From Verrucomicrobiia bacterium (GTDB lineage: Bacteria > Verrucomicrobiota > Verrucomicrobiia > Limisphaerales > Pedosphaeraceae): DNA of 52,035 bases. The position numbers and the translations under genes are program-made. Under the pieces are notes generated by a model, which saw only the letters and a program-made list of their open reading frames with translations, was not told the DNA's origin and searched no databases. This document shows, piece by piece, positions 29,801 to 52,035 of the stretch. Position 1 is the first letter of the stretch. Each line of letters begins with the position of its first letter. The DNA is taken from assembly GCA_036268055.1 (NCBI GenBank), contig DATAUW010000022.1, positions 1 through 52,035 of the forward strand, written 5' to 3'.

Positions 29801-32800
29801 GTCGCATTTGTGCTCTTCACCACGATAGCAACGGTGTCCAAATCAACATTTCCAATCAGAGTAAAATTGGAACTCGCGACCATGCTGTTGGACAGCGGAT
29901 ACGATATCGTAATCGTTGGCGGCGTTACGTCGCCCGTGTAATCCAATACATAATTTATGTTTGTAGAGGTTATATTTCCAGCTCGATCAATCGCGTGAAT
30001 AGTTATTGCGTTTGTGCCGCTCGCTAAAAATATGTCATATCCGTGGAAATAATTTGTGGTGAATGCACTCGTTGAGGCGTCAGCATATTGGCCGGTGATG
30101 TATATTTGTTGATTAGACAAGACGCCCACTGCGTTGCTCAGATCATAAGTCAGCTGAGCCACTTCCTTTGATACATACCCCTCAAGCTGAATCACAGAGT
30201 TCGACACGCCGGAACTGATGGGATTGGTCACCGCAATTACCGGCAGGACGGTGTCGCGAACAACGGAAATTCCCAAAAAAATTTGCTCCATATTCGTGGT
30301 CAAACCTTCCAGACCGATTTGAATGTCGTATTCACCATCGTTGGTTCCCAAAGGAACCGTCACAGTCGAATTGGTGTATGGAAGCCAAACCGCAGATGCA
30401 AAATTTGAATTTACGACGACTGAAATGGATGACGGCACGCCACCGGAAATATTCAATTGCACCGGCACGATGTCTGAATTGACCAAGTTGTTTGAAACGC
30501 TGAGAGAAAAGCTTATCTGGTTTGGGTCGGTTCCATTGATATATTCCGTGATATTGTTCGTTCCATCGTTATCATAATCTGCATAGGGATCGACGCCAGT
30601 GTGGCCAAAATATTTGATTTGCCATTTGGTCAAATTCGTAACTCCGTCACCATTAGTATCCACCAAATAATCCGGTATACCTAACCAAAGAGTGGAAAGA
30701 GGAGAACCATTCGTGTCGGTTGCAACATAATGGTAGCCGATGCTCACAATATTCGTTCCGTCTTTTACTTCATTCGTTGTTACCGTATATTCGTAAAGCC
30801 CAAGCAAATTGGCATTGGTGCTTCCGTCATTTATGAGACTGCTTGTGCCATATTGATAAAAAGAGCCCAAAGGTCCCACCTCATATCCCGGGGAATTGCT
30901 CAACATTACCGAGTTAAAGAAAAGCGGATCGAAATTGGAAAAATTATTGGAATTTGCAAAAGCATTATGATCAAGGCTATTCGTTGGAGAAATGGCAAGA
31001 GCGCTCCGATCAAAAAGATTATTTTGAATTGAAAGCCCTGTTGCGTATTCGTTGTAAAAGAAGAATGCCCCGCCATAAACTGTATTGTTTTTTGCGGCTG
31101 AGGTGGCGCTCACAAAGAATTCTATGTCAGTGCGATCAAACAGGCAATTTATGATATTTACAGCCGATGACAATCCGCCTTCAAGGGCTCCAGAATGAAA
31201 TTGGCAATCACGCAAATTAAATGTCCCGCCATTATCAAACCAGTCTATAAACCAAGTTTCTCCAGCCAGGCAAGACCAGTCGGCGAAGCGGAAATCTGCA
31301 GTTGGAAAATAGACTTGGCCATTAAAGACAAAAACATAATCTGAAGTGTTTACTGTCCAGTTTGTGTCAGCCTCCTCTTGAACAGTGTCATAAGTAACGA
31401 AATGTGCCAAATTTGTTGGCTGGCCCAAGCAATTAAGTTGCGCCGCTCCGTCGATCAAAATGCTATTGGGGCCAATAAAAAAATAGGAAGGATCGCTCTT
31501 GAGGCCAAATCCGCCGACAACGGTTCCCGGTTGCACTGACAATATCGCGTTTGTAACATAGACAGTTCCGCAAAGATAATCAATCGCATCATAGTGGTAT
31601 CCTGCGTCAGGCGTATTGTTCGTATCGCGTGCCACCTGGGGAGAGAAAATCGTGTTATTGGAAATCACTTGGTCCAATACAAGTTCCGGAGAAAACGTCG
31701 TCTTTTGTTCGATGTCACGAAGCGTAATGGGATTGATATTCGGCGTGCCAAAAGAGCGGGCGGCGCTGTTTGTGGAAAGGTAGAAGCTGCCAACGCCTAG
31801 TTGATAAAATAGTCCGCTGCCGTTGGTAATGCTATGATCGGTGGAGACACCCGTCTGATCAGTCACGCCTGCGATGATACAATTTGTGAGGAAAGCGCCT
31901 GAATAACCCAACGGGCAAAAGGTTTGCGCTTGTCCCACGGTGACCTGTTCGCCAGTAACTGTTCCGGTGGTTGCAGCACAGTTCGTTGCCTGGGTGATGA
32001 GAACATTATGCAGGTTGATTGTTTGGCCCGCTCCGGCGGCAACAGCCGTGCCGCATTTCACAAATTGACAATCCCAAACATTGACCGGGCCGGACGAATT
32101 CGTTATTCCCGTTCCGGCATACACAATGCGAAGATATCTATAGTCATTCGTCTGACCGGCGCCGCCAAAAATATAGGCCCCAGCATTGAGATTTGTGGGA
32201 TGTGCCGAGCCGGAGTAAATAATTTGCCCTACTGAATTGTCCTGAACCTGAGTCAATATGGCAGGCCGATAAGGGCCAGTTGTGCAGACCAACGGGCCAT
32301 TCAAAGTGATTTGCGCGGTTGGGGAATTGGTGTATTTGATCACCGCTCCTCCCTCAATGGTTGTAGTTCCGTTCAGCGTCACCGGGCCACTAACATAATA
32401 GGTTGTGTCAGCCTGAAAGGTAAAATTCGACATGGTGTTTACGATGATGTAATCCAAAACAAATCCAGTGACGGGTTTTACGTTTTTAGCGGCTGTCATC
32501 GGCACCGGCTTGGCATTTACAGATTTAGCAGCCAACAGGACGGGGTGTTTTGAAGCCCGGTGAAGTTGTGCTCCGTCCTTGCTGTTCGTTGAGGGAGTTG
32601 ACGAACCCGTGCCATTGGTGGTCGCTGGCAATGGCAAGCTGGCGAGTTGTGACGAAATTGACGAGAACGGAATCTCTTCTACGAGAAATTTTCGGCCACT
32701 TTCAGGAAATGTTCGCCAATGCTTAAATACCGGCGTCAAATTGCTCTGGCCATCAAGGCTGAATGCCTTGCCCTCACCCATTTCCATGAGTCCAAAATCC

Positions 32801-33603
32801 AACTGTTCATCCTGATAACCGGATATTTGATTCGTGCGTATAAAGGGATCAGGACATTGCGTAAATTCCGTCCAAATTTGCAAAAAAGTGGTTTGTGGAT
32901 TTAAGTTCCATTCAGCGGGCGACGGTGGTTGTTGCCGCAAAATAACATCCTGTTCCAAACCTTGTTTGGTGTAGGTATATCGGACATCGGCTTGAAAATC
33001 GGTGAACGCATTCGTGTAAAGGGCTTGATTGAGCGTCGGCAGGAGCTGACCGACTGAATCCTGCAATTCAGCGATTAGAACATTGGTTCCAGTTGATGCG
33101 TCATAATAACCGATGCCCATTATGCGACTGCTCATCGCTTCACCGTCGGATTCAACCAAGTGGATTCCTCCGGTAGTGTTGATATTTCCTGCAAAATAGA
33201 TCTGATGTTGCCCGTTGGTAGCGGCGGCGCCGCCAGACGTTATTTCAATATTCTCGGACGATTCAATCCACTGACCGCCAACCAAATGATGCATTCCCGT
33301 AGAAAGCTCCTTAACAAAATTTGTTCGAGACGAAATGCGTCTCGCATTGTCCGATCGTGCTTCAATCCGCTGCCACACACGATCATTTGCTCCCTTTGCC
33401 CCTAAGTTATACGCGGAGAGTAGCCCCGGCGTGGAATTGCTACCTTGAGATTGCGCGTAGCTAGAACAGCAAAATAAACTGAAGATGGCAAACCCAAGAA
33501 TTGCTCTAAGCGTCCGCCAGGTTGATTCGGTGTTGAAATTGCTAATGCTAGAGAGCAAAGAAATTGGATTAGATTTTAAAAGGACAAACCTCGGTGTGCG
33601 CAT
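26860..33603 (-). CDS. Giant secreted multidomain protein with C-terminal alpha/beta-hydrolase
   Basis: A 2247-residue exported protein. The long n-region and hydrophobic core (LRAILGFAIFSLFCCSSYAQ) end near residue 51. About 350-900 look like parallel beta-helix repeats (NAGAYIFGGAGQTNDYRYLRIVYAG, NVWDCQFVKCGTAVA). About 980-1030 hold EF-hand/thrombospondin-type calcium motifs (DTNGDGVTNL, DYDNDGTNN). About 1040-1400 are Ig-like modules with DTVLPVIAVTNP and GDVTPPTITISYP. The end carries an alpha/beta-hydrolase: oxyanion region NLVFIHGYNVNEQQARG at ~1864 and nucleophile elbow VVAHSLGNML at ~1948. Esterase or lipase activity is plausible. It leads a two-gene operon, AT-rich and within the mobile island. 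Confidence 0.85.
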   Translation of the reverse strand: MRTPRFVLLKSNPISLLSSISNFNTESTWRTLRAILGFAIFSLFCCSSYAQSQGSNSTPGLLSAYNLGAKGANDRVWQRIEARSDNARRISSRTNFVKELSTGMHHLVGGQWIESSENIEITSGGAAATNGQHQIYFAGNINTTGGIHLVESDGEAMSSRIMGIGYYDASTGTNVLIAELQDSVGQLLPTLNQALYTNAFTDFQADVRYTYTKQGLEQDVILRQQPPSPAEWNLNPQTTFLQIWTEFTQCPDPFIRTNQISGYQDEQLDFGLMEMGEGKAFSLDGQSNLTPVFKHWRTFPESGRKFLVEEIPFSSISSQLASLPLPATTNGTGSSTPSTNSKDGAQLHRASKHPVLLAAKSVNAKPVPMTAAKNVKPVTGFVLDYIIVNTMSNFTFQADTTYYVSGPVTLNGTTTIEGGAVIKYTNSPTAQITLNGPLVCTTGPYRPAILTQVQDNSVGQIIYSGSAHPTNLNAGAYIFGGAGQTNDYRYLRIVYAGTGITNSSGPVNVWDCQFVKCGTAVAAGAGQTINLHNVLITQATNCAATTGTVTGEQVTVGQAQTFCPLGYSGAFLTNCIIAGVTDQTGVSTDHSITNGSGLFYQLGVGSFYLSTNSAARSFGTPNINPITLRDIEQKTTFSPELVLDQVISNNTIFSPQVARDTNNTPDAGYHYDAIDYLCGTVYVTNAILSVQPGTVVGGFGLKSDPSYFFIGPNSILIDGAAQLNCLGQPTNLAHFVTYDTVQEEADTNWTVNTSDYVFVFNGQVYFPTADFRFADWSCLAGETWFIDWFDNGGTFNLRDCQFHSGALEGGLSSAVNIINCLFDRTDIEFFVSATSAAKNNTVYGGAFFFYNEYATGLSIQNNLFDRSALAISPTNSLDHNAFANSNNFSNFDPLFFNSVMLSNSPGYEVGPLGSFYQYGTSSLINDGSTNANLLGLYEYTVTTNEVKDGTNIVSIGYHYVATDTNGSPLSTLWLGIPDYLVDTNGDGVTNLTKWQIKYFGHTGVDPYADYDNDGTNNITEYINGTDPNQISFSLSVSNNLVNSDIVPVQLNISGGVPSSISVVVNSNFASAVWLPYTNSTVTVPLGTNDGEYDIQIGLEGLTTNMEQIFLGISVVRDTVLPVIAVTNPISSGVSNSVIQLEGYVSKEVAQLTYDLSNAVGVLSNQQIYITGQYADASTSAFTTNYFHGYDIFLASGTNAITIHAIDRAGNITSTNINYVLDYTGDVTPPTITISYPLSNSMVASSNFTLIGNVDLDTVAIVVKSTNATQSAVIDRNGGFSVLGLALTDVTNIFTVIATDGAGNSTTNTLSVLKGSLVLTVNPLSSSQLSGSTVTMTGTISDGSQSVWVNGVAATVTGTSWSATVTAPGGNTLSAVVQAGTSLSSPVGDLPVLASMPPIVRASGWILNQTQTHDSFCAGPSFESSFYNNYYQSWSLGFGGISTYISGSSVSSSGDCSSAVVWPTNWPDGAVLDGTQMCGSTSDPYSEATPTDDGWGFTSYETQRTGSGPEEDCLPGASRNTSTITIENRTKIQLSTGGVAQPGVQRIVRLLAYAYDAYGDIPANQIELFGQSLTATATNAYVGELFMSFPAGSTQDVPIRVFDSGNALSTDYGFYVTAEEIPLQMVSDGNKDGLISFDGSDVNTQANPWRFWIDDSQESGDITSGSDDQIPGSISPNSANSAVNGRNDLVNFFPIAINFGDTLEKLSPTNGYEYRLSQSDEAIAIVYTSLPLNDSFDYLTNSSSDARYGTFGNGPSLADTIPISGAGSLTLSTNFLNYAMTNDGIGLILVEGLKSTSNPLMLEIWQNGSKLLSVPFYLSLTGVEQMFRHVNLAYVTAGSNAVPARALAPNEPISTNNKNLVFIHGYNVNEQQARGVESEMFKRFFWSDSHAHFYGLTWNASVSQGAIIKNVSGNLQTNIVNAFLTSPYLAIILSNLNLTGQTVVVAHSLGNMLALSAISDHGASPDKYFMLDSAVALEAIDGTLETDPGMVLPSWSNYDNRLWATEWHNLYATNDARSLLTWKDRLANLNFTTEIFNFYSSGEEVLREFPGTPPEDLTDSIGVILSDMAIGVDQAAYAWVWQEKNKGRMDGNDFVSSNHGGWKFNAFYDTTNGDVAQLLDTNTAASLSDSQLSTQAFFSFVSDPDSDFPFAVDSALELTTGSTYAAANRDRILSDAIPSRTLPIGANFSAVLGADHNIDMQNSFTSGYPLSRTTGLEAFKWHHSDFDYVAYPFVFRLFNKIVTSGELK

Positions 33604-34072
33604 ATGGGTAGCTAGAGTATAATCGGCGATGCTTTTGACAGTGCGAAAGCCCTGATGGCAGGCGTGTGCCCCTGCCTTTCAAGTAGGCCAATCAATTGTC
33701 GAAAATGTATTTGCACAAAAAAACAGACATCAGATTGCATGGGTGCCCTTCAAAATCTCCTTGAAAACAGTCTGCATCAGACTGGCCAAGTTACAGATTG
33801 GCCGCATGGTAAACTCGCATGCCTAACTGACAAGACATTTCTTAATTATTTTAAAAAGTATAACGGATTCTTAAAGATACTAATCTATAGATGTCTAATA
33901 TTAGTGCGCCTTACGACCGTTAGAGCGTAATATGGCCGCTCTATATAACAATAATAAGACATTTTTTTCTGAGGGTCTTCTCATGGGGATGAGTTAAGGA
34001 AATACCCCTTTACCGGACACGATAGTGTCCGGAAATGTTTTTGATCTGCTCGCCAAGCCAGTCTCGGGAGCA
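33604..34072. other. Intergenic region upstream of the giant gene
   Basis: A 469-bp AT-rich stretch between the giant gene's start and the replication-relaxation gene's stop. It should contain the promoter of the giant gene and holds island hairpin copy 2 at 34013-34032. One 91-codon plus-strand frame here has scattered Cys and no protein-like features. I see no convincing gene. Confidence 0.6.
34013..34046 (+). terminator. Island hairpin copy 2
   Basis: A perfect 8-bp stem CCGGACAC/GTGTCCGG with loop GATA is followed by AAATGTTTTTGA. It is homologous to the hairpins at 25672 and 35391. It lies 40 nt from the stop of the replication-relaxation gene, so it may also act on the minus strand. 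Confidence 0.65.
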
Positions 34073-34951
34073 TTATGATTTAATACATTTGACTATCCTC
34101 GCCCCTCCATCCGCGCTCGGTTTTTTCAAACAGAAGCATGCCTTTATGTTACCCAGAGCGTCATTTCTTATTTCATCTAAGGTTGAAAGACATACCTGAT
34201 TGGGTAAGTGTCGGACATCAAGAAGTTGTTTGGCCGTGTTATTACGCCGCTCGTGATTTAAGAGCACGATAAGCAGCCGAAAGGGAAATTGCTTAAAATC
34301 GCTGCGTTTGCCTCCGCACTTTACGGCAAAGTCGCCGGACGTGTAATGACTAGAGTAGTCGGCGACGCGTCTCACAAGTTTGTCCTGGCTTTCAGTGCTG
34401 CGGTCAACTTCCAAAAAGAACACCCGTTCCGACAACCCTTCGGATTCCTTTTCGTGAATGCGAATGAATCCGTCCGGCTTTACGAGCGGAGTTTTACTTC
34501 CCGATCCAGGCCGATTTGGCTCAAACTGGCAGAGGAGCGGCCACGTTATAAATTCTGCGACTGAAAAGCGCGGATGTTTCTGAAGTGCTATATGAAAGGC
34601 GGCTTTTACATCCATCACGTCAATCTCGTGTGCCACGGTCGAATCGCCTACGTCAGCCCGTCGTTCAAGGGAACGCAGGGGCATGTGTGGATACATTTCC
34701 AAACGGCCTGATTCAGCGAGAGTCTGGATGCCCTTTTTTAAAAGAAAAAGAACCGATTTTTCTGTAACAGCTCTTTCGCGCTCGGCGATGAGCCGGGCCG
34801 CTTTAAGCTTTTGAACCCGCTTTTTCGCTGCTTCACGGCTTCCTTCGAAGTGCAAATGCGCGACCTGAAGGGAAGTCATGATGCGGGACTCAAACAAGCT
34901 CTGCAAAAAATCGAGATCGCGAGGGGTGATTTGGATTCCGTCGAATTTCAT
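34073..34951 (-). CDS. Replication-relaxation family protein
   Basis: A 292-residue protein of the replication-relaxation family, found in plasmids and integrative elements. The N-terminal winged-helix-like region (ITPRDLDFLQSLFESRIMTSLQVAHLHF, GSREAAKKRVQKLKAARLIAERERAV) spans ~8-65. A nuclease-like core follows with LVKPDGFIRIHEKE at ~155-168 and RVFFLEVDRSTESQDKLVRRVADY at ~178-201, the D...E.D pattern of PD-(D/E)XK folds. Relatives help start plasmid replication or relax DNA. It is the best-preserved element gene in the island and marks its right part. Confidence 0.82.
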   Translation of the reverse strand: MKFDGIQITPRDLDFLQSLFESRIMTSLQVAHLHFEGSREAAKKRVQKLKAARLIAERERAVTEKSVLFLLKKGIQTLAESGRLEMYPHMPLRSLERRADVGDSTVAHEIDVMDVKAAFHIALQKHPRFSVAEFITWPLLCQFEPNRPGSGSKTPLVKPDGFIRIHEKESEGLSERVFFLEVDRSTESQDKLVRRVADYSSHYTSGDFAVKCGGKRSDFKQFPFRLLIVLLNHERRNNTAKQLLDVRHLPNQVCLSTLDEIRNDALGNIKACFCLKKPSADGGARIVKCIKS

Positions 34952-38013: not shown

Positions 38014-39291
38014 CTAAGCGAGTGTCCACGGTTTGCGCATCGGGCGGTCAATCATGGCATTCGCCTGAACGTCGTTTTCAAACCGCTCGGCCGCCGGATC
38101 CCACTTGAGCTTGCGCCCCAGCCGGAGCGAGAAATTGGCCAGGTGGCATACAGTCGCCACCCGGTGGCCGACATCCACTGGGAAATAAGGGTCCTTGCGG
38201 CTCTTCATGCACTTGAGGAAATCATCGTGTTCTCCTTCGGGATTTGTGTAGAGATGAATCTCGTTCGGGCCGATGACGGAATCAAGGATTTCGGTGGAAC
38301 TGGCTTCGAGCGGAGCGCGCCATCCGCGGTTGCCAATCCAGCCGTCGCTGCCGATGAACTTGAGGCTTGGACTGCCCGGAGCGCAGGTCATGATGACGCC
38401 GTTGGCGTAGCGAAAAGTCACATTATAATCGTTGGGCGTGTTGTAGAGTCCGCCTTCCCAAAGCGTGCCGGTGCTTTCGACCTCGACCGGCCCGCTGCGT
38501 TCAGTATCATTTGCCCATTGTGCGGTATCAAAGAGGTGCGCACCCCAATCTACGATCACTCCTCCGGAATAGTCCCAGATGTATCGGAAATTGCCAAAGC
38601 AACGGTCTTTGGTATAAGGCGCGTCCGGAGCGGGGCCGAGCCACATATCGTAGTCGAAATCCGGCGGCACCGGTTGCGGGGTTGGATCGCCGGCCGTCTT
38701 GGGCGCCTTGGGCAGGAGGACTTCAATCTTCTGCAACTTGCCAATGCGTCCGTTGCGCACCAATTCCGCCATGCGATGGTACATCGGCAGTGAGCGGTCT
38801 TCGGTGCTCGTCTGAAATACGCGGCCATATTTCCGGATCGTTTCGACGAGAATCCTGCCTTCGCCAATCGTTAAAGTGGGCTTCTCGCATTGAATGTCTT
38901 TGCCAGCCCGCGCGGCCTGAATGCTGATGAGGGTGTGCCAGTGGTCCGGCGTCGAGATCATCACCGCATCTATGTCCTTCCGGGCGATCACATCCCGGAA
39001 ATCCTTGCTCATCGCGCAATCCTCATTATCGTAGCGTGCGTCCACGAATTTCTTGGCCCGGCGCATACGATGGCCGTCAACGTCGCACACCATCAAGACC
39101 CTCGCATCATACCTTTTGAGATAGTCTATCAGATTCCATTCAACCCCATGAGTGCCCATGCCGATGAAGCCGATATTAATCCGCTTGCTCGGCGCGGCCG
39201 CCCCCAGCACGGACGCAGGAATGAAAGTGGGAAGCGCCAACCCTGCGGCGGCAGTCCGGATAAAGCGGCGCCTGGAAATGGATTTTTTCAT
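38014..39291 (-). CDS. Tat-exported Gfo/Idh/MocA family oxidoreductase
   Basis: A 425-residue oxidoreductase with a Tat signal MKKSISRRRFIRTAAAGLALPTF at its start. The Rossmann fold is at ~37 (INIGFIGMGTHGVEWN). The STPDHWHTLISIQAARAGKDIQCEKPTLT segment is at ~113-142. The C-terminal domain includes GGVIVDWGAHLFDTAQWAND at ~250. It is the first gene of a three-gene minus-strand operon. Upstream at 39451-39484 lies a 20-bp-spaced direct repeat suited to an AraC/XylR-type regulator, which is encoded just upstream. The substrate is probably a glycoside. Confidence 0.91.
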   Translation of the reverse strand: MKKSISRRRFIRTAAAGLALPTFIPASVLGAAAPSKRINIGFIGMGTHGVEWNLIDYLKRYDARVLMVCDVDGHRMRRAKKFVDARYDNEDCAMSKDFRDVIARKDIDAVMISTPDHWHTLISIQAARAGKDIQCEKPTLTIGEGRILVETIRKYGRVFQTSTEDRSLPMYHRMAELVRNGRIGKLQKIEVLLPKAPKTAGDPTPQPVPPDFDYDMWLGPAPDAPYTKDRCFGNFRYIWDYSGGVIVDWGAHLFDTAQWANDTERSGPVEVESTGTLWEGGLYNTPNDYNVTFRYANGVIMTCAPGSPSLKFIGSDGWIGNRGWRAPLEASSTEILDSVIGPNEIHLYTNPEGEHDDFLKCMKSRKDPYFPVDVGHRVATVCHLANFSLRLGRKLKWDPAAERFENDVQANAMIDRPMRKPWTLA

Positions 39292-40990: not shown

Positions 40991-41635
40991 ATGATTCAAG
41001 AGCCCGACCTCCAGGAGTGGATAGTTGAATACCTGACCCATCAAAGCAGTTTAATGCGGTCACTGCCGGTCGCAACCATCGCGCGCGTGGTCGAGTGCAT
41101 ACGTCAAGCCGGTTTGAAAGATAAAAACATCTTCGTCATCGGCAATGGCGGCAGCGCCGCGAGCGCCTCCCATTTCGCCACCGATCTCGGCAAGGGGGCT
41201 TCCGACCGCTGCCCATCACGATTTCGCGTGCTGTCGCTTGCGGACAATGTCCCCTGGCTTACTGCCTTGGGGAATGATTATTCATACGCTGACGTTTTCG
41301 TGCGGCAGTTGATTAATTTCGGACGGCCCGGAGATGTCCTTATTGCGGTCAGCGTCAGCGGTAATTCGCCAAACCTGGTCAAAGCCGTGCGATGGGCCAA
41401 TAAACACGGATTGGAAACTGTAGCTCTCGTGGGCGCCAAACGGGGTCTTCTTGCGTCCCTGGCCAAACAAACCATCGTGGTGAAGGACCACCACTACGGA
41501 CGGGTTGAGGATCTTCACATGACAATTCTTCACCTATTGTGTTACTCGGTCATGGAAGAAGCGTCTCCAGCTCGTAGACTCACTTCCAAAAAATCAGTTG
41601 CCCGTGGACGCATCAAGGAAGGAGCCGGCAAATGA
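40991..41635 (+). CDS. SIS-domain sugar isomerase, GmhA-like
   Basis: A 214-residue cytosolic protein of the phosphoheptose isomerase (GmhA)/SIS family. The phosphosugar-binding loops are VIGNGGSAASASHFATDLGKG at ~49-69 and VSVSGNSPNLVKAVRWA at ~118-134. A SLADNVPWLTALGNDYSYADVF segment and the helix EDLHMTILHLLCYSVME fit GmhA. GmhA converts sedoheptulose 7-phosphate to heptose phosphate. Here it precedes a HAD phosphatase and a PfkB kinase, so a parallel sugar pathway is possible. It is divergent from the XylR-type regulator across a 257-bp gap. Confidence 0.85.
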   Translation: MIQEPDLQEWIVEYLTHQSSLMRSLPVATIARVVECIRQAGLKDKNIFVIGNGGSAASASHFATDLGKGASDRCPSRFRVLSLADNVPWLTALGNDYSYADVFVRQLINFGRPGDVLIAVSVSGNSPNLVKAVRWANKHGLETVALVGAKRGLLASLAKQTIVVKDHHYGRVEDLHMTILHLLCYSVMEEASPARRLTSKKSVARGRIKEGAGK

Positions 41636-41749
41636 TTTTTTTCTTTGGATGTGCTTCAAAACCGCAAATTTCTCCCACTAAAAAACGATCGGTTTAAACG
41701 AATTAAAATCATGTTTCCGCTATACCTGGATTAGGAAAATCCCTTTCGC

Positions 41750-42595
41750 ATGCCACAAAAATTATTATTCAGCGGGTTGGTTGAATTTGCAGATAACTTC
41801 GCGCCACGGCCGGGCATCACTCATGTCTTGTTTGATTTTGACGGCACGTTGTCGCTCATTCGCCAGGGCTGGCCGGACGTGATGATTCCGTTGTTCGTCG
41901 AGATGATTCCACCGCGTGACGGCGAGACGGAGGCCGATCTGCGCAAGCTTGTGTTCGACGACATCATGCGCCTCAACGGCAAGCAAACGATCTATCAGAT
42001 GATCCAACTCGTGGAGCGCATTCGAGAACGCGGCGGTCAACCGCGCGAACCGCTGTGGTACAAACACGAATACTTGTACCGGCTTGATGCTCGCATTGGC
42101 TCGCGCCTCGAAGGATTGCGGACCGGTTTGATCTCCGCCGATGAACTGCTGGTTTGGGGCGCGCGCGCCTTGCTCGAGGATTTATCGCGGCGCGGGATGA
42201 AGCTCTATCTGGCCAGCGGCACCGACGAGATTTTTGTGAAGCAGGAGGCTGCGTTGTTGGATGTGGCGCGCTACTTTGGTCCGCACATTTACGGCGCACA
42301 AGATGACTATAAAACATTTTCCAAGAAAATGGTCATTGAACGAATTCTGTGTGAGAACCAGATCAAAGGCGCACACCTGCTGGCGTTTGGCGATGGCTAC
42401 GTCGAGATCGAGAACACGAAGGAAGCCGGCGGATTGGCGGTGGCGGTCGCCAGTGACGAAGCCAATAATGGCTCGGGCCGCATGGATGAGTGGAAGCGGC
42501 AACGATTAGCCGGCGTCGGCGCCGATGTGACGATTCCGGATTTCCGCGATGCCGGCGCGTTGCTGGCACGCATTCTCAACGAAGATTCAAAATGA
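41750..42595 (+). CDS. HAD-superfamily phosphatase
   Basis: A 281-residue haloacid dehalogenase-type hydrolase. Motif I is FDFDGTLS at ~28-35 with Asp29 as nucleophile and Asp31 as acid/base. Motif II is LASGT at ~150. Motif IV is AFGDGYVEIENTKEAGG at ~211-227. A helical cap lies between I and II, as in the phosphoglycolate phosphatase class. It probably dephosphorylates a sugar phosphate. Its TGA overlaps the ATG of the PfkB kinase (ATGA), so the two are translationally coupled. It follows the SIS gene by 114 nt. Confidence 0.85.
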   Translation: MPQKLLFSGLVEFADNFAPRPGITHVLFDFDGTLSLIRQGWPDVMIPLFVEMIPPRDGETEADLRKLVFDDIMRLNGKQTIYQMIQLVERIRERGGQPREPLWYKHEYLYRLDARIGSRLEGLRTGLISADELLVWGARALLEDLSRRGMKLYLASGTDEIFVKQEAALLDVARYFGPHIYGAQDDYKTFSKKMVIERILCENQIKGAHLLAFGDGYVEIENTKEAGGLAVAVASDEANNGSGRMDEWKRQRLAGVGADVTIPDFRDAGALLARILNEDSK

Positions 42596-43656
42596 ACCTG
42601 CCGCCGTTTGCCACGCCTATGAATCGGGACCGCTTCCAGCAATTGGCCCAAAAGTATCCGGCATTGCGTGTGGGTGTGGTTGGAGATTTTTGTCTCGATC
42701 GTTATCTGGAAATAGATCCCGCGCGAACCGAAACATCCATCGAGACAGGCTTGCCGGTCAACAACGTAATCAAAGTGCGCGCGCAACCCGGCGCGGCGGG
42801 CACCATTCTTAACAACCTGGTTGCTATTGGCGTAGGTGAAATTTATCCCATCGGTTTTTGCGGCGAAGATGGCGAAGGCTACGAATTACGGCGGGCGTTG
42901 GCCGCTCTCAGTGTCGTGCGTCTGGATGGTTTTCTCCAAACGAAGGATCGTTGCACGCCTGCTTATTGCAAGCCGCTGGTGATCGAGCCGGGAAAACCGC
43001 CGCGCGAACTCAATCGCCTCGATACCAAGAACTGGACGCCCACACCGGCAGCCATCCAAGAAACCATTGTAGCATCCTTGATGGGACTTGCGCCAAAACT
43101 TGACGCGATCATCGTGCTCGATCAGGTGGACGTGGCAGAAACTGGCGTCGTAACCCGGCGTCTGCTCCAAGCGATCGGGCAACTCGCGAAGGACCGGATG
43201 GAGCAGCTCATCATCGCGGACAGCCGGCGCGGCCTGAGAGACTGGCCCGCGACGACATTCAAGATGAACGCGGCAGAACTGGGAGCATTGAGCGGAGTGG
43301 CGGCCAACGCGGATCTGGATGAACTGAAGCAAAGCGCGAGCTTCCTGGCGCGGCAGCGTGATCGGTTAATGTTTGTGACGCTGGCCGAACGGGGCATGAT
43401 AGCCGCAATGCCAGATGGCCACGTGGAACACCTGCCTTCCCTGCCCTTGCGCGGACCCATTGACATCGTGGGCGCGGGAGATTCGGTGACAGCGAATTTG
43501 ACGGCAGCCCTTGCTGCCGGCGCCACCGCGCGAGAAGCAATCGAAGTTGCCAGCGTCGCTGCTTCGATCGCGATTCACCAACTCGGCACGGCAGGCGCGG
43601 CCTCGTGTGATGCCATCTCTGAATTACTGGCGGCCATGGAAACTAATGGAAAATAG
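42592..43656 (+). CDS. PfkB-family sugar kinase, RfaE/HldE-like without nucleotidyltransferase domain
   Basis: A 354-residue ribokinase-fold kinase. The start YPALRVGVVGDFCLDRYLEIDP, the substrate region VRAQPGAAGTILNNLVAIGV, a central TFKMNAAELGALSG segment and the signature PIDIVGAGDSVTANLTAALAAGA at ~288-310 identify PfkB; the catalytic base is Asp in GAGD. This resembles the kinase half of HldE, but the C-terminal nucleotidyltransferase half is missing. Together with the GmhA-like SIS and the HAD phosphatase this mirrors the enzyme set of ADP-heptose synthesis. A catabolic role in a sugar pathway is equally possible. ATG 42592 overlaps the HAD stop. Confidence 0.87.
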   Translation: MNLPPFATPMNRDRFQQLAQKYPALRVGVVGDFCLDRYLEIDPARTETSIETGLPVNNVIKVRAQPGAAGTILNNLVAIGVGEIYPIGFCGEDGEGYELRRALAALSVVRLDGFLQTKDRCTPAYCKPLVIEPGKPPRELNRLDTKNWTPTPAAIQETIVASLMGLAPKLDAIIVLDQVDVAETGVVTRRLLQAIGQLAKDRMEQLIIADSRRGLRDWPATTFKMNAAELGALSGVAANADLDELKQSASFLARQRDRLMFVTLAERGMIAAMPDGHVEHLPSLPLRGPIDIVGAGDSVTANLTAALAAGATAREAIEVASVAASIAIHQLGTAGAASCDAISELLAAMETNGK

Positions 43657-45276: not shown

Positions 45277-47583
45277 CTATAGCTGCTGGCTATCCAGCTT
45301 AAACACGCAGGGCGGCTGGCTCTGACCATCTGCGGGCGGTTGCAGACGCTTCGGAAGATTAATGACCGTGCCTTTGGCAGGGTCGTCATGCCAATTCAAA
45401 TTTTCACTGTCTCCCAGCATTCTGACGGTTGCTCCCGGTTGGAGTTTGACGGACTGAAGCGCCAGTTCATCACCGGGCCATTGCAAGGCGATGGCGTAGA
45501 TAACCGAGCCGGAATCGGCATGTGTGAAGCGAATATTACCGCCTTCTTTCCAGTCGGAACCAGATCGGGGATGGGTGTTGAAGATGGCTTCTCCGTTGGT
45601 CTTCAGCCATGTGCCGGCGTATTGGAGAGCGGCAATGGCCTTGGGATGAAAAAGGCCGGTGGCATCTGGCCCGATACCCACCATGAAACTGCCACCCTTG
45701 GCCACGGTATCAACCAGATTGGTCACGATCCAAACCCCATCCTTGTATTTGCTCGCGTCGGGTTCATAACTCCAGATGCCATCTCCTTTTACCAAAGGAT
45801 AAATCACCATCCATGGCATGTCGGTGTTCGCAGCCGCTCCGGGAACGAAACCTTCAGGCGTATAGTAGTCGCCATAATTGCCGATGCCGCGCGCGCGAAA
45901 CATGGTATCAGGCTGGATGCGCCGGACGATTTTCATGGTTTCCCGCAAATCCAGCCACGCGCTTTTGTCGAACCACATGTCCAGGCATACCAGATCTATC
46001 TTGCCATATTGAGTAAGCAACTCCGTCAACTGCTGGCGATGGCGTTGGACAAAATGGTTCCATTGGTCGGGGTGCTCGATCTTATCAACTTTCCCAGGGA
46101 AAGGATGCTGGTTAAAAGGTCGGAAGTCGGCGTCGTACCAATCAGGATGGGAAAAATAGAGATCAATTTTGATGCCGTGGCTATGGGCCGAATCGGTTAT
46201 TTCCTTGACGATGTCGCGGTGAAAGGGCGTGTCCATGATGCTGTAGGCAAAATCGCAGTCCTCGATTTTCGGCCCGCCGGGGGCGGTCCAGTTGACGCGG
46301 CGAACCACGCGCGTATGGGTATCAAACATGGAAAATCCGTCATGGTGTTTGGTGGTGAAGGCCACCACCTTGACGCCATTGGATTTGAAAAAATCCATCC
46401 AGGCATCGGCGTTAAAGTTGGTGGGATTGAAGGTTTTGTAAAAATCCTGATAGGCCTGGCGTCCCTGGTTGTCCAAGGCAGGATGGCCGTTGTCCGCCCG
46501 GACAAAAGGCCAGGAGGCGTTTTCGCCATAACCCAAATTGGCATAGACGCCCCAATGAATGCGCACACCATATTTCATTTCCCGGAAAGCGGCGCGGGCC
46601 GCATCGGAAGCCTGGCTATAGTCCGGATTAGGCGTGTCTTCGACATACGATTTGACCTGTTTGTAGTGTGAATCAGTGACCGGCAATTTTACATAGTTGC
46701 GGAATGTGCGCGGGGCGTTGGTATCCCCGGCGAATCGGAATGGCTTGCCGCCGATAATCTGGTCGCTGGTGATGGTGGGACACCAATATTTTTCAATGTG
46801 CCAGGCCATCAAGTCCGTGCCGGTGAAGTGATCCACATAAGGTTTCATTTGCGGGTTATACATGGTGTCCGTCAAATCACGCACCAGCACGACATTCTGA
46901 TGTTGATACACCATCTGGCGGATGGCGAAAGGGCGATTGACGATGCACATGTTTTCATGAACGCCCATGACAATGACGTTGGTGATGCCGCGCTGACGCA
47001 TGAGATAGAAGGCTTCCGTGCTGTCGGTTATCGCATCGCCTTCCTTGATCTGGAGAGTGTCAATTTCGTGAGTCCAAGGCGTGCCTTGCGGGCTTCCGTC
47101 CGTACAGCCCCCGTCTGAATCATCAATCGGCAAAGGAGCTTCCAGGGCGAGATTGACCGGGCAACTGTTTCGCAGCGGCGGCATGGTTTCAAAATGCGGA
47201 GCCGCCTGCGCAAGTTTGCGTCCCGGCGTCCCTTGGTAATATTTCATTGTGTCGCTGGGACAGTGGATGATCAAGACACCGCGCCGGCGCAATTCCGTGA
47301 TCAAGTCATTCATGCGCGGCGCCATTTCCGCCACGCGGGCTGTCGCATCGGCGCACCAGTGCTGGTTCCACATGTCGCAAATGACCACAGCCGTGTGTGA
47401 AGGGTCCCAACTGGCGTGCGTGTTTTTCTCCTCCCATTGATCCACGCCGGTGTCCTTTTTTTGCAACCGGCGCATATTCAGCTCAAGTGGCGAAGACGGC
47501 GGCGGTTGAGCAACGCCAAGAGATGGGATGATCATTGCCATGCACAAAACGATGAGCGGGCAAATGTTTTGAACTATTTTCAT
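45277..47583 (-). CDS. Secreted fusion of cysteine hydrolase (isochorismatase-like) and GH29 alpha-L-fucosidase
   Basis: A 768-residue secreted protein. The signal peptide (NICPLIVLCMAMIIPSLGVAQ) precedes an isochorismatase/nicotinamidase-like domain at ~55-265. That domain has the catalytic Asp in VVICDMWNQHWC at ~70 and the catalytic Cys in IVMGVHENMCIVNRPFAIRQM at ~209. From ~330 a GH29-like barrel follows: MKYGVRIHWGVYANLG, VAFTTKHHDGFSMFDTHT, KIDLYFSHPDWYD and the putative nucleophile region IDLVCLDMWFDKSAW at ~537. A C-terminal beta-sandwich with VIYAIALQWPG ends it. It would remove terminal fucose from glycans; the role of the amidase-like half is unknown. ATG 47583 starts the signal peptide. 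Confidence 0.85.
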   Translation of the reverse strand: MKIVQNICPLIVLCMAMIIPSLGVAQPPPSSPLELNMRRLQKKDTGVDQWEEKNTHASWDPSHTAVVICDMWNQHWCADATARVAEMAPRMNDLITELRRRGVLIIHCPSDTMKYYQGTPGRKLAQAAPHFETMPPLRNSCPVNLALEAPLPIDDSDGGCTDGSPQGTPWTHEIDTLQIKEGDAITDSTEAFYLMRQRGITNVIVMGVHENMCIVNRPFAIRQMVYQHQNVVLVRDLTDTMYNPQMKPYVDHFTGTDLMAWHIEKYWCPTITSDQIIGGKPFRFAGDTNAPRTFRNYVKLPVTDSHYKQVKSYVEDTPNPDYSQASDAARAAFREMKYGVRIHWGVYANLGYGENASWPFVRADNGHPALDNQGRQAYQDFYKTFNPTNFNADAWMDFFKSNGVKVVAFTTKHHDGFSMFDTHTRVVRRVNWTAPGGPKIEDCDFAYSIMDTPFHRDIVKEITDSAHSHGIKIDLYFSHPDWYDADFRPFNQHPFPGKVDKIEHPDQWNHFVQRHRQQLTELLTQYGKIDLVCLDMWFDKSAWLDLRETMKIVRRIQPDTMFRARGIGNYGDYYTPEGFVPGAAANTDMPWMVIYPLVKGDGIWSYEPDASKYKDGVWIVTNLVDTVAKGGSFMVGIGPDATGLFHPKAIAALQYAGTWLKTNGEAIFNTHPRSGSDWKEGGNIRFTHADSGSVIYAIALQWPGDELALQSVKLQPGATVRMLGDSENLNWHDDPAKGTVINLPKRLQPPADGQSQPPCVFKLDSQQL

Positions 47584-47636
47584 ATCATTAAACTTCAATA
47601 CTGGTGACGCTGGGATCCAATTAGGAATAGCTCCCA

Positions 47637-47678
47637 CAAAAAGAACTGGAAAATGCTAAAATCCAGCATTCTCCAGTT
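47637..47678 (-). terminator. Rho-independent terminator after the giant FN3 gene
   Basis: On the minus strand a 14-bp stem AACTGGAGAATGCT/AGCATTTTCCAGTT (one mismatch, 7-nt loop) is followed by CTTTTTG, ~20 nt after the stop at 47700. Confidence 0.7.
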
Positions 47679-47699: not shown

Positions 47700-50600
47700 T
47701 TATTGAACAAAATATCTCAAGAAAAGTCCCGATTTTGAAACGCTTATAGGCACCAGATTAGTGATCGTTCCACCGGTTCCGGCGGTGATGCTGTTGGTTG
47801 CCCAAACCACCGGCGGCGCCAGATTGGTCGTCGTCAACAGGTAGTAATTGAATCCACTAACCGTCGCAACATTGACCACCAGGTTTTTGCCGAGGCTGTC
47901 TATGCCAGGCGGCAGGATGGTCGGCGCGGGCGGGGCGATTATCCCCGTTGTAAGCGTCAAACTGGTGCTGCCGTCAGTTGCGCCAACCAGGGCCACCATG
48001 TCGCCGGCTGCGGAATAAGCAATCGGATAAGTGCCGGTCGCAAATCCGGTGGTGTCGAAGCTGATGCTGAAATCTCCCATCGCATCATTGACCGTCGTGG
48101 TCTGCGTGCTTCCGTTGATGGTCACGCTGACCACGGTGTTGCTGGCCAGAAATACCGGCGCGCTGTCCACCGTTGCGCTTACTTTGCCAGACAACGTCAC
48201 ACTGGTGCTGCCGCTGGCGATCGTGGGACTGGACAAACCGAAGAACGCTGGCGCCCATGCGGGAGCGCCGGTGAACGCGATATTGGCATACGATAAATAC
48301 ATTTCCGTTGCCACAAGGGTGTTGCCATCAAATACCGGGATTCCCAACGCCGTCAAATCGGCCAGATTAAATGCCCCCCAATTGGTCAGCGGAGCGATGT
48401 AATGCGTCCACTCGCCTCCGGTTCCAGCTTGGAAAAGCACGATATCAGGCCACGTTCCCCGTTGATAGCTCGGGTTGCCGCCGACAGGCAGTTGAAGGCT
48501 GAGTTGTATGGCCTGAACCTGGCCGAACTCGTCCCAACCGGCTTGGTTTTTTATGTCCATTTCGAGAGACTTGTATGTGCTGACATTCAAGTTTTGGCCA
48601 AATATTTTTTGGATTCCCTGGCTTGATCCGGTGCCCCCAGGACCAAATATGGCGTCCATGATCAGGCATTCGCTTGAGGGGCCGCTCGGGGGAGCGTCTG
48701 GGTAAGCATATATCTGCGGGGTGCCATTAAGCACAGACCACCCGTTGGTATCGCTGTCGGTATTGAAGACGCCAATATAATTGGTAAGGAAGGCCACCAC
48801 CGGAACGGCGCTAACCTGTCCTGAATTGGCGCTGGTGCCGAACCCGTTCACGGTACTTACCTCATAGTAATACCGCGTCCCGTCGGTTACCGATGTATCA
48901 ATAAAACTGTTCGTGTCTGAACTTCCGATTTCAGTGAAACCGCTGCCGCTGGTGGTTGAACGCAAGACATTGAAGCTGGTCGCGCCCAGTTGGTTGTTCC
49001 AACTTAAGTCCACTTGGTTGACATCCGCAGTCGCTGTCAAACCTGTCACCACCGTAGGCGGCCCCATTGCAACGGCACTGGCTTGCGCCGAAAACACGCT
49101 CGTGCCGCCAGAACCCACGGCCTGCACGACATAAAAATAAGGGTTCCAGTCTGTCACGCTGGTATCGGTGTAAGTGGTGGAAGCATTGCCGGTATTAGTA
49201 GCGATCACAGTGAAGCCGGTGCCACTCGTCGTCGAGCGCAGCACGATGTAGCCAGACGCTCCACCACCCGAACTGTCAGCCCATGTCAAATTAATCCGGT
49301 TCGTCTGCCCCGTCGCCGTCACGTTTATCGGGGCGGTCAAAACTATCAGCGGCGAGAATATCTCAGCCGCCTCATCCATGTGCGTGGAGCCTCCCGTGGC
49401 CACCGCCGATATGGTGGAGTCACCAGCCGCCAGATTAGTGACATAACCCATGGCGCACTGGTTGCCACCGGGACGGGGATTGATACTGGCTGTTTGCCCG
49501 CTTGTTGATGTGAAGGTGACGTTGTTCCCGCCGCCGCCGTTGTAATTTATGCTCATCAACGCCGCTGCAGAACCAACTACAGTGTCGGACGGCGTATCAA
49601 GAAACAGAGTTGTGCCGTCCTGGCCTATGCCGAGACCGGTCGGAATAACCGTCGTGTCAACCCCTCTAAAGGTATAGGCCTGCATGAACATGTTATTGTG
49701 GCTTGAGTTGGTATCCGTGCCAATAATGAAGCCGGTGCCTGGTAATGGATCCATGACATAATATAGAGTGGTCCAAATCCAAGTGAACTGACCGCTGTTC
49801 GTCGCAATGCCGACGCTGATAGGCTGGATAGTCCCAAAAGTCGCATTGCTCCACACCAGGTTTGCGCCCGGATACCCCGCGGGGCCGCTATTATCATTGT
49901 CTTGCACCGCAACCACCAGGACGCTGGCGCCTTGAGATACTGCGAAGGGCTGGACTATATTGCTGACGGCGCCCACGGTGGCAGTGGTATTTAGCGAACC
50001 ATCAAGCAGGGCGATTCCCGTGCCGATTGCCGGCATGAACACGGCGGCGGCGAGCGTGCATTTTGTTGCTCCGCCCGCATCGGACATGCCGATTGTCGTG
50101 GCGCCGGCTCCAAGGCCGCTCACAAAACCAAAAGACTGTTCCTGGTTATTAAGAACATTGTGTGTAGTTGAGGAACCGCTCGTGGAAGTCTGCGTTATAG
50201 CCTGGCCGGAATTTCCATCAAAACTGAGCGCCGCCGCCCACGCACCCGCCGGAGTCTTGGCTGAAGTAGTGACCGAAAGAGTCGTAGCAGACGCACTCGT
50301 GGTAGAGTAAGTGACAGGAGCGACGGTTGTATCCACGCCGGCAAGCGTGACTGGCATCATGGTCAGGCCCTGGACCAAACTAGTTCCATTAGTATCGGAG
50401 CCTGAAATAGTGCCACTGCCCGGAGCCGGGTTGAAGAGATAAAAGATATCGCAATCCGAGAATGTCGAGGTGCCACTCGCCTGCGAAATTGCCCGAACAA
50501 GAGTCTGAATAGTTCCAGTCGTGGCATTACTCCAGGTTATGGTTGAGGGTGAGGAGTTATTACTCTGCTGATTTCTATCCCATAGTTCGACTACCATCAC

Positions 50601-52035
50601 GCTGGCTCCCTGAGAGACTGCGAAGCTTGAACTGATATTGGATCCAGCCCCACTGGCAACAGTGGTTATTGAGTTGGTTCCGCCATCAAGCAGAGCAATG
50701 TTTCCCGACAAGCCGGTTAGCAAAGCAAAAAATGGTATCGCGCTGGCTTGCGTTGACGGGGAGCTGGTACCGCCCGAATCCACAGCTTCCACCACATAAA
50801 AGTAGGTCGTCCCGTCATACACGCTGGTATCTATGTAATTGGTGGAACCGATGCCGCTGAGAGTGGCCACCGCAATGTAGTTGCTGCCACTGGTGATCGA
50901 GCGCAGCACAATATAAGTGGTTGAAAACCCGCCCGAGGTATCAGACCACGACAAGGCAACCCGGTTAGTCTGCGCCGTTGCTGCCAAATTGATTGGCGCC
51001 GTCGGCGGCGGCAACGGAATGCTGCTGACCTGGGCTGACAAGGAACTTGTACCCGCCGCGTCCACGGCTTCCACCACATAAAAATAGGTGGTGGCACTGA
51101 TACCGCTGGTGTCGGTGAAACTGGTCGAGGCGTTTCCGGTATTGGTCACGATCGGGCCATAGCCGGTGCCGCTCGTCGTCGAGCGCAGCACAATATAACT
51201 GGTCGCGAGGCCGCCCGAACTATCAAGCCAGGACAAAGTTGTCCGGAGGTTTCCCGGCGTTGCAACTACGTTCGTCGGGGCCGATGGGATCGGCGGAGTA
51301 GCCGCGCCAGGAGACGGACCGAAGACGGCCACGCCCAGCGCCATCTTTTGATTGCCCGCGCCGGCGCCCGCGTTTGCCGTAATCGTACTGCTGCCGGCTG
51401 AGAGATCCGCCACATAGCCCAACACGGATGCGATCCCCGCATTGGTCTCGGCGTCCGTCACCGTGCCGCTTGATGCGGCAATATTCATGAGCAAATTGGC
51501 AGTGCCATAACTGCTGCTCAACACCGCCCAATCGGAGGCCTGAGTGCTGCTCGACAAAGTGACTGCAACGGAGGTGGTGGACCCATTATTGGTGGTGTAA
51601 GTGACGGGAAAAGAGTTGGTGTCAACGCCGCTCAGGGTATAAGCCTGCATGACCATCGCGGATGGGATGGTCCCCGACGTGTCCGTGGCCGTAATGTTGG
51701 TTGTGCCCGGTTCGGGATTGAAGAGATAATAAATATCACTATCTGCAAATGTGCTTGTCGTGTTATTGACGGAAATCGCCCGGATAAGGGCCTGAGCGCC
51801 ATGCCCAGGGGCGGTCCATGTCAAGATCGCAGGCGAGACATTTCCGGCGACATTATTCCTGTCCAACAGCGAGACGACCAGCACACTGGCTCCGGGCGTC
51901 ACTGTAAAACTCTTGCTGACACTGGCAACATTGGCGCTGGTCGCCAGACTCGTCGAACCATCATGGATGGCTATTTGCGCGCGCGCGCTGCCGCAAAACA
52001 GAAGACCAGCCAGAGCCAAGCCGGCCACGACGCTT
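47700..52035 (-). CDS. Giant secreted fibronectin-III surface protein, N-terminus at window edge
   Basis: At least 1442 residues. The N-terminal signal core (AGLALAGLLFCGSARAQ) is visible, but its start codon may lie beyond the right edge. Three copies of a ~220-residue beta-rich module follow, each with SVLVV.L.DRN, F.D.DIYYLFNP-like sequence and a final GA..I...G.......A..VF.P. FN3 domains with the theme SYIVLRSTTSGTGY...TYFYVVEAVDAAGTSS lie between and after them, at least four. A carbohydrate-binding-like region (WPDIVLFQAGTGGEWTHYIAPLTNWG) and an Ig-like module close the protein. It ends GLFLRYFVQ, the usual surface-protein tail here. A role in adhesion or polysaccharide capture is likely. 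Confidence 0.8.
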   Translation of the reverse strand, partial: SVVAGLALAGLLFCGSARAQIAIHDGSTSLATSANVASVSKSFTVTPGASVLVVSLLDRNNVAGNVSPAILTWTAPGHGAQALIRAISVNNTTSTFADSDIYYLFNPEPGTTNITATDTSGTIPSAMVMQAYTLSGVDTNSFPVTYTTNNGSTTSVAVTLSSSTQASDWAVLSSSYGTANLLMNIAASSGTVTDAETNAGIASVLGYVADLSAGSSTITANAGAGAGNQKMALGVAVFGPSPGAATPPIPSAPTNVVATPGNLRTTLSWLDSSGGLATSYIVLRSTTSGTGYGPIVTNTGNASTSFTDTSGISATTYFYVVEAVDAAGTSSLSAQVSSIPLPPPTAPINLAATAQTNRVALSWSDTSGGFSTTYIVLRSITSGSNYIAVATLSGIGSTNYIDTSVYDGTTYFYVVEAVDSGGTSSPSTQASAIPFFALLTGLSGNIALLDGGTNSITTVASGAGSNISSSFAVSQGASVMVVELWDRNQQSNNSSPSTITWSNATTGTIQTLVRAISQASGTSTFSDCDIFYLFNPAPGSGTISGSDTNGTSLVQGLTMMPVTLAGVDTTVAPVTYSTTSASATTLSVTTSAKTPAGAWAAALSFDGNSGQAITQTSTSGSSTTHNVLNNQEQSFGFVSGLGAGATTIGMSDAGGATKCTLAAAVFMPAIGTGIALLDGSLNTTATVGAVSNIVQPFAVSQGASVLVVAVQDNDNSGPAGYPGANLVWSNATFGTIQPISVGIATNSGQFTWIWTTLYYVMDPLPGTGFIIGTDTNSSHNNMFMQAYTFRGVDTTVIPTGLGIGQDGTTLFLDTPSDTVVGSAAALMSINYNGGGGNNVTFTSTSGQTASINPRPGGNQCAMGYVTNLAAGDSTISAVATGGSTHMDEAAEIFSPLIVLTAPINVTATGQTNRINLTWADSSGGGASGYIVLRSTTSGTGFTVIATNTGNASTTYTDTSVTDWNPYFYVVQAVGSGGTSVFSAQASAVAMGPPTVVTGLTATADVNQVDLSWNNQLGATSFNVLRSTTSGSGFTEIGSSDTNSFIDTSVTDGTRYYYEVSTVNGFGTSANSGQVSAVPVVAFLTNYIGVFNTDSDTNGWSVLNGTPQIYAYPDAPPSGPSSECLIMDAIFGPGGTGSSQGIQKIFGQNLNVSTYKSLEMDIKNQAGWDEFGQVQAIQLSLQLPVGGNPSYQRGTWPDIVLFQAGTGGEWTHYIAPLTNWGAFNLADLTALGIPVFDGNTLVATEMYLSYANIAFTGAPAWAPAFFGLSSPTIASGSTSVTLSGKVSATVDSAPVFLASNTVVSVTINGSTQTTTVNDAMGDFSISFDTTGFATGTYPIAYSAAGDMVALVGATDGSTSLTLTTGIIAPPAPTILPPGIDSLGKNLVVNVATVSGFNYYLLTTTNLAPPVVWATNSITAGTGGTITNLVPISVSKSGLFLRYFVQ

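Follow-up and report, generated by a model that had tools for sequence, protein, structure and literature searches.

A cysteine-hydrolase-fold domain joined to an altered GH29 barrel in a probably exported protein of a Verrucomicrobiia bacterium

The protein described here is a fusion whose two halves have their closest described counterparts in the isochorismatase-like cysteine hydrolases and in the GH29 glycosidases. It is encoded on the minus strand of contig DATAUW010000022.1 of a Verrucomicrobiia bacterium (assembly GCA_036268055.1), positions 1 to 52,035 of which form the 52,035-nucleotide stretch analysed in this study (the window). The catalytic triad of the hydrolases TrtA and BiuH consists of Asp, Lys and Cys (PMC7948467, PMC5806882), and the only substitute for the Lys that BiuH was reported to tolerate is Arg, at an approximately 25-fold loss (PMC5806882). 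For GH29, PMC9548408 gives Asp224 and Glu266 for TM0306, describes the position of the acid/base as variable within GH29A, and reports that Trp216 of BaGH29 (nucleophile Asp218) forms the pocket for the C6 methyl group of fucose; that the Trp two residues before the nucleophile lines this pocket is stated in both PMC11189522 and PMC9548408. Other sugars are the substrates of some GH29 enzymes, α-galactosidases and α-glucosidases having been reported in the family (PMC10154630). In comparison with these systems, the fusion protein from the window lacks the conserved Lys of the hydrolases and carries two replacements in the GH29 sugar pocket. We favour, at a probability of roughly 0.45, the reading that it is a probably exported, bifunctional two-step enzyme that scavenges a modified L-galacto-configured sugar.

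The open reading frame (ORF) contains no internal stops and extends upstream as far as a GTG at 47637 (45277..47637), the ATG at 47583 being the more likely start. When read by eye, without a predictor, the N-terminus MKIVQNICPLIVLCMAMIIPSLGVAQ resembles a signal peptide and probably is one, and the protein is probably exported. The AlphaFold model of the whole chain reached a mean predicted local distance difference test score (pLDDT) of 88.1 and a predicted template-modelling score (pTM) of 0.83, and the cysteine-hydrolase-fold (CHL) half modelled alone reached 91.1 and 0.90, respectively. In Pfam, the Isochorismatase family PF00857 scored 33.5 bits over residues 64-240, above its cut-off of 27, and Alpha_L_fucos PF01120 matched residues 323-665 (E 4.6e-61), and there was no match to ThuA (PF06283). 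The first-pass annotation of this DNA, made from the letters alone, had proposed that an amidase-type and a fucosidase-type domain are joined in one secreted chain, and the open ORF, the Pfam domains and the two predicted folds bear this out, with export probable. The features of the protein are as follows.

45277..47583, minus strand: CHL-GH29 fusion protein of 768 residues, from the ATG at 47583 to the stop at 45277, with full-length homologues; model pLDDT 88.1 and pTM 0.83
47509..47583, minus strand: probable signal peptide, residues 1-25, read by eye; residues 1-24 have a pLDDT below 50
46714..47508, minus strand: CHL domain, residues 26-290, with the PF00857 match, a model pLDDT of 91.1 and a match to RutB (8blm_D)
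47374..47376, minus strand: Asp70, general-base position of the CHL triad, Asp in 60/60 sequences
47023..47037, minus strand: Asp183-Asp187 (DAITD), the site of the catalytic Lys loop in canonical CHLs, here shortened and without a conserved Lys, from profile-profile alignment and column counts
46945..46947, minus strand: Cys213, nucleophile position of the CHL domain, Cys in 60/60 sequences
46618..46713, minus strand: linker, residues 291-322, recognisable by alignment in six fusions
45589..46617, minus strand: GH29 catalytic barrel, residues 323-665 (PF01120, E 4.6e-61; 9eu1_A, Z 37.7)
46561..46563, minus strand: Arg341, in place of the Phe of solved GH29 enzymes (F-I/L-HWG), Arg in 16/16 subfamily genes
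45985..45987, minus strand: Cys533, in place of the Trp two residues before the nucleophile, Cys in 13/16 and Ser in 3/16
45979..45981, minus strand: Asp535, GH29 nucleophile, in 15/15 rows and aligned with solved structures
45853..45855, minus strand: Glu577 (TPE), probable acid/base, in 15/15 rows and at the TM0306 spacing
45343..45537, minus strand: Fucosidase_C domain, residues 683-747, from Pfam

The fusion is real and not an assembly join, because five other genomes of the order hold full-length, co-linear homologues with a shared linker. It was found in six of 320 genomes of the order (own genome, G000, included; up to three candidates scored per genome), spread over three families (f1, f9 and f16), and the identities to the window protein were 73% (G264), 66% (G268 and G098), 64% (G265) and 62% (G015). 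The linker consensus FRNYVKLP..D.HY..V.SYVE.TP.PDY was recognisable in all six. These co-linear matches rule out a frameshift artefact as well as the joining of two genes, which the first-pass annotation had named as the finding that would overturn its proposal. A search of 387 genomes of the phylum (G000 and G048 of the order included; up to two candidates scored per genome) at E 1e-100 revealed no further fusions. A viral origin was rejected after a scan of viral contigs found no relatives of the protein.

The history of the fusion appeared less simple. A quick tree built from 60 CHL domains grouped the six that are fused with five standalone CHLs in one clade of 11 rows (SH-aLRT 100), and the six fused domains by themselves did not form a clade (approximately unbiased test, P = 0.027). 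The ORFs of the five standalone CHLs end at the CHL domain. In the GH29 tree the six fusions lay on one side of a branch whose support (62/91) was not strong. Thus, a single origin seen as a simple clade is not upheld by the CHL tree, in which fused domains are mixed with standalone ones, and both a single fusion followed by later splits and repeated fusion would fit the trees. Separate but adjacent CHL and GH29 genes, for which the first-pass annotation had suggested a survey, were absent from the loci of the five standalone clade CHLs (two of these contigs being only about 5 kb long) and from the fetched loci of non-fused subfamily GH29 genes.

The GH29 half aligned most closely with known α-L-fucosidases (VIA-align): 9eu1_A at Z 37.7 (root-mean-square deviation, rmsd, 2.8; 392 residues aligned), 6gn6 at Z 37.4, human FucA1 at Z 36.4 and Thermotoga maritima 1hl9 at Z 34.4. 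With these enzymes (9eu1/9eu4, 6gn6, FucA1 7pls, TM0306 1hl9) it has the barrel, the C-terminal domain and the Asp nucleophile in common, together with a Glu at the TM0306 spacing. In the GH29 alignment (all 15 kept rows, two of them outgroup; three more subfamily genes were read separately, and the G120 fragment lacks the sites), Asp535, Glu577, His343, His413, His414, Tyr476 and Arg565 were invariant. In the alignment, Asp535 falls on the Asp of WFDFS in 6gn6 and of WFDGW in 9eu4; Glu577, which follows it by 42 residues as Glu266 follows Asp224 in TM0306, is the probable acid/base. The first-pass annotation had singled out the segment CLDMWFD as departing from the usual nucleophile motif, and the departure is meaningful; the nucleophile, however, is the Asp of C-L-D and not that of the later WFD.

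What sets this barrel apart from the solved α-L-fucosidases, besides the CHL domain in front of it, is the pocket. At E 1e-70 the subfamily comprised 17 genes in 14 of the 320 genomes of the order (up to five candidates scored per genome), 16 of which cover both pocket sites. The column of residue 341 was Arg in all 16 (13 aligned and three read separately), and that of residue 533 was Cys in 13 and Ser in three. In contrast, all eight solved GH29 sequences compared (6gn6, 9eu1, 9eu2, 9eu4, 9s0x, 9rzx, 9rzy and 7pls) have Phe before I/L-HWG and Trp two residues before the nucleophile, and the two ordinary GH29 outgroup rows have Phe in the former column and Trp or Phe in the latter. The subfamily member of G464, which lies elsewhere in the phylum, carries Arg and Ser. 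In the T. maritima structure the Phe is part of the same C6-methyl pocket as the Trp. The Trp at nucleophile minus 2 that marks the hydrophobic C6-methyl pocket of fucosidases is thus replaced here by Cys533. Because the Phe and Trp of this pocket have given way to Arg341 and Cys533, the name fucosidase is doubtful for the barrel, and so is the fucose assumed by the first-pass annotation; the alignment suggests a distinct subfamily that is GH29 by fold and nucleophile and not safely a fucosidase. The members nearest the fusion also share an insertion, TRV..RVNWT..GG, after the HHD motif. A precedent for L-galactose over L-fucose within the same fold is the exo-α-L-galactosidase BpGH29 (7ljj, 7lk7, 7lnp; Z approximately 30), an enzyme outside our set of eight; the fusion barrel was not specially close to it by sequence or Z.

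These observations bear on the possibility that the protein is an ordinary α-L-fucosidase with a broad pocket, to which the CHL domain would be attached as a non-catalytic binding or scaffold module. The intact GH29 catalytic residues, the GH29A fucosidases as top structural matches, the loss of the Lys from the CHL triad and the FucU-family genes beside two GH29 relatives (see below) are all consistent with it. However, none of the 16 genes retains the Phe and Trp that the solved enzymes have at these sites, and Asp70, Cys213 and many polar residues of the CHL half are invariant over 60 diverse sequences, which is unusual for a dead domain. We regard this alternative as rather unlikely.

The CHL half aligned best with RutB 8blm_D (Z 17.2, rmsd 2.1, 167 residues aligned), followed by TrtA 6xj4 (Z 16.6) and BiuH 6xjm (Z 16.1), and Foldseek retrieved 8bkd (E 1.1e-8, TM score 0.48/0.61). 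In the model it has the cysteine-hydrolase fold, closest to these amide hydrolases, so that structure prediction, proposed as a check by the first-pass annotation, recovered a known fold for this half (RutB) as for the barrel (9eu1). The family alignment comprised 60 of 63 kept rows (L095, L109 and one L092 piece were left out, and the window stands for L003); tblastn pieces that contained a stop, covered fewer than 200 (CHL) or 330 (GH29) residues or were near-identical had been excluded from the alignments. Asp70 (CDMW) and Cys213 (ENMC), the two residues whose presence had been noted at first pass, were invariant in all 60 sequences, as were Trp72, His75, Arg83, Arg99, Asp183, Asn211, Arg217, Asp236 and Glu264.

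The third residue of the triad behaved differently. In a profile-profile alignment (98% probability) with 16 canonical CHLs from relatives (16 of 30 loci), about eight residues were deleted at the Lys loop, leaving DAITDS, and the 60-sequence columns held no conserved Lys at the canonical loop. The best Lys column anywhere in the family was that of residue 265, with Lys in 39/60. Lys180 of the window protein lies 33 residues before Cys213, the spacing of TrtA and BiuH, and its column held Lys in 12/60. The control was imperfect, since among the 16 canonical rows no column held more than 10 Lys as aligned, and several of the other rows had a Lys a few columns off. Thus, while the fold and the Asp and Cys positions are those of RutB, TrtA and BiuH, the CHL domain of the fusion differs from them in its missing Lys, in the shorter loop, in its probable export and in being joined to a carbohydrate-active domain. 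Because the catalytic Lys and its loop are missing from the family alignment, the CHL half, as judged from these alignments, lacks the Asp-Lys-Cys triad, is not a standard amidase and should not be called one; the first-pass annotation, which described an amidase with intact Asp and Cys, had not mentioned the Lys. Either a conserved Arg or His may have taken over its role or the chemistry may differ. That so many polar residues are invariant speaks against a dead domain and is the pattern expected of a working enzyme.

The proposal made at first pass, a true amidase and a true fucosidase acting together on fucosylated N-acyl sugars or glycan amides, draws on the resemblance of the CHL fold to RutB, TrtA and BiuH and on C-N hydrolase genes that adjoin two GH29 relatives. 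In G234 and G041 (loci L100:7764-10738 and L034:5178-9320), the next gene after the subfamily GH29 gene encodes a same-strand C-N hydrolase of the nitrilase superfamily. The two hydrolases are only 27% identical to each other; they accompany the GH29 genes of G234 and G041 but not that of G079, the three being the closest non-fused GH29 relatives of full length. The G264 fusion has a C-N hydrolase fragment at a distance of about 3 kb. This adjacency, noticed post hoc, is a hint of an amide-type substrate, and to that extent this part of the proposal gains some weak support. Nevertheless, 15 of the 17 subfamily genes lack an adjacent C-N hydrolase, the catalytic Lys is not conserved and the fucose pocket is altered, and we consider the proposal as a whole improbable.

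The CHL domain of the fusion occurs in many genomes of the order, mostly at 45-67% identity, and one genome collection held at least 584 loci of the family. Planctomycetota and Verrucomicrobiota accounted for most of the best 80 of these relatives, a set in which Chthoniobacter flavus and one Paenibacillus also appear. In 20 ORFs scanned with Pfam, 19 contained CHL (L034 being a GH29 protein without it), 14 ThuA and six DUF7133; one protein of the latter type (L042) matched the NCBIfam models for PVC-type heme binding. BLAST against reference domains sorted the 83 ORFs of the best 80 named loci into 47 CHL-ThuA proteins, 22 CHL-ThuA-DUF7133-HEAT/cytochrome c proteins (open-ended ones included), 11 CHLs alone, two CHLs with an unassigned C-terminus and one unassigned ORF, and none was a CHL-GH29 protein; some ORF starts were over-extended (e.g., L035, L034, L101). 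The fusion's CHL domain thus belongs, by sequence relationship, to a large, mainly planctomycete and verrucomicrobial family that is usually fused to ThuA. With the CHL-ThuA proteins, with or without DUF7133, HEAT repeats and cytochrome c, the window protein shares the CHL domain (mostly 45-61% identical) and the Lys loss, whereas their C-terminal partner is ThuA and its own is GH29, so that CHL homology places it in that family and the lack of a ThuA domain sets it outside. The only other PF00857 protein of G000 was of the ordinary type. We found no name for the CHL-ThuA family in the domain libraries searched, and no description of CHL-GH29 or CHL-ThuA fusions, or of a function of the Lys-less CHL family, in the open-licence PMC literature.

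Five members of the family (L037, L038, L039, L041 and L047) were very long proteins combining CHL, ThuA, DUF7133 and HEAT-like repeats (L041 and L047 matched the repeats only below the cut-off), with cytochrome c in all except the truncated L038. We know of no pathway that has several enzyme-like modules in one CHL-ThuA-DUF7133-cytochrome c chain. In a metagenome-assembled genome of Planctomycetota (L159:4248-6741), a standalone CHL gene lies directly downstream of two PhyH-family genes, and DUF2961 proteins adjoin, or lie near and divergent from, two standalone CHLs of the fusion clade (L104:3423-4601 and L116:2126-3688). The CHL of Paenibacillus montanisoli was probably acquired, because at E 1e-30 only one of 295 Paenibacillaceae genomes, its own, contained the domain.

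A few relatives of each half lie among overlapping sets of genes, which suggest what may follow the release of the sugar. In G248, co-directional genes encode GH29, a 138-residue unassigned ORF, an aldo/keto reductase (AKR), a short-chain dehydrogenase/reductase (SDR), an alcohol dehydrogenase (ADH), an RbsD/FucU protein and an AraC protein. The co-directional genes of G079 encode AKR, SDR, GH29, ThuA, ADH, a FucU-like protein, a second, distant GH29 and an HpcH/HpaI aldolase. In G053 a standalone CHL (65-67% identical to that of the window) follows ADH and SDR, starting just after the SDR gene behind AAAGGAG as read by eye. In P. montanisoli (L184:332-6780) the CHL stands at the end of a run of an AP_endonuc_2-type TIM barrel, GFO/IDH/MocA, RbsD/FucU, AKR and PhyH. 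The SDRs of G248, G079 and G053 were 82-84% identical (two pairs measured) and their zinc-ADHs 69-71%; the Paenibacillus AKR was 47-49% identical to the other two AKRs. In a clustering of the 112 of 140 loci kept after overlap removal (93 with CHL), the only recurrent neighbours were GFO/IDH/MocA oxidoreductases (10 loci), a second family (nine loci) and a third, transporter-like by eye (four loci).

The position of the G053 CHL downstream of ADH and SDR, and the DUF7133 carried in the chain by six of the 20 scanned ORFs, would also agree with a CHL half that hydrolyses a sugar lactone after oxidation, the heme-linked DUF7133 fusions making the lactone in the same chain. However, the window protein has no oxidase partner and the neighbours are not conserved. 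To our knowledge, there is no lactonase in the CHL fold, and we consider this explanation very unlikely.

In the favoured reading of a two-step enzyme, the barrel would be a retaining exo-glycosidase that removes a terminal α-L-galacto-configured sugar, with Asp535 as the nucleophile and Glu577 as the acid/base. Since the fucose-methyl pocket carries Arg and Cys, the target would exceed fucose in polarity at C6, as L-galactose does or a relative that is charged or amidated. The CHL half would use Cys213 to break an acyl bond, be it an amide, an ester or a lactone, and a different residue would fill the role of the Lys. It would act either on the substrate that the barrel attacks or on the sugar after its release, and the two steps could come in either order. 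The sugar might then be taken up and oxidised by way of a FucU-type mutarotase, a zinc-ADH, an SDR and an AKR, as the gene order of the few relatives suggests.

Several observations weigh against this reading. GH29A fucosidases head the list of structures that match the barrel, at Z 37.7 compared with about 30 for BpGH29, and the placing of Arg341 within reach of the sugar is a prediction from alignment. According to PMC5806882, BiuH tolerates only Arg for Lys, and a Lys-less CHL may accordingly have an altered chemistry or have lost catalysis. The clustering of 112 loci yielded no conserved operon, and the shared gene set was present at two of the 17 subfamily GH29 genes, one of the five standalone clade CHLs and none of the six fusions (window and fetched flanks). 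Moreover, the Paenibacillus FucU protein scored 124.5 bits for L-fucose mutarotase, where the cut-off is 141, and the FucU-like proteins of G248 and G079 scored about 40 bits for ribose pyranase (that of G079 also for fucose mutarotase), far below the cut-offs. Because these scores lie below the cut-offs, the neighbours do not fix the sugar, and we do not claim a general L-fucose pathway.

We saw no conserved operon around the fusion itself, and the genes that flank it differ among the other five genomes. A tblastn search of the window gave no match to FucU-, AKR-, SDR-, ADH- or PhyH-type genes, and an AKR beside the G098 fusion was a single weak match (25% identity). About 117 bases upstream of the fusion gene and on the same strand, a gene for a 1442-residue protein with a fibronectin-type match (47700-52028) could be co-transcribed with it. 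A gene for a 3-keto-disaccharide hydrolase (PF06439; 43748-44581) is convergent with the fusion gene, SIS, HAD and PfkB genes in a row (40991-43656) resemble those of sugar-phosphate (heptose-like) synthesis, and a GFO/IDH/MocA gene lies at 38014-39291. Farther away, a 2247-residue ORF without a PHROG match (26860-34951), near a Replic_Relax (replication-relaxation) gene, is perhaps part of a mobile element. Among the GH29 relatives, one subfamily gene (L248:223-7292) lies beside an opposite-strand gene for a 1523-residue protein that contains rhamnogalacturonan-lyase family 11 domains, which hints at pectin, and a GH29 fragment at a contig start (L107:1-4773) is fused to glycoside-hydrolase-2-type domains in a 1590-residue ORF.

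Taken together, the observation made at first pass was confirmed and its interpretation was partly supported. GH29 matches are easily annotated as fucosidases, and the two-residue signature described here, an Arg two residues before the His of IHWG and a Cys or Ser two residues before the nucleophile, predicts another sugar. The fusion also links the Lys-less CHL family, with its at least 584 loci, to carbohydrate release. A broader proposal, which we put forward tentatively and consider rather unlikely, is that this large exported family of planctomycetes and verrucomicrobia would carry out acyl or lactone hydrolysis of a new kind in the oxidative breakdown of L-sugars. In the fusion it would be combined with a GH29 subfamily whose specificity has shifted from fucose to an L-galacto sugar with a polar C6 (L-galactose, L-galactose-6-sulfate or a residue resembling L-galacturonamide), so that one chain would both unmask and release the sugar.

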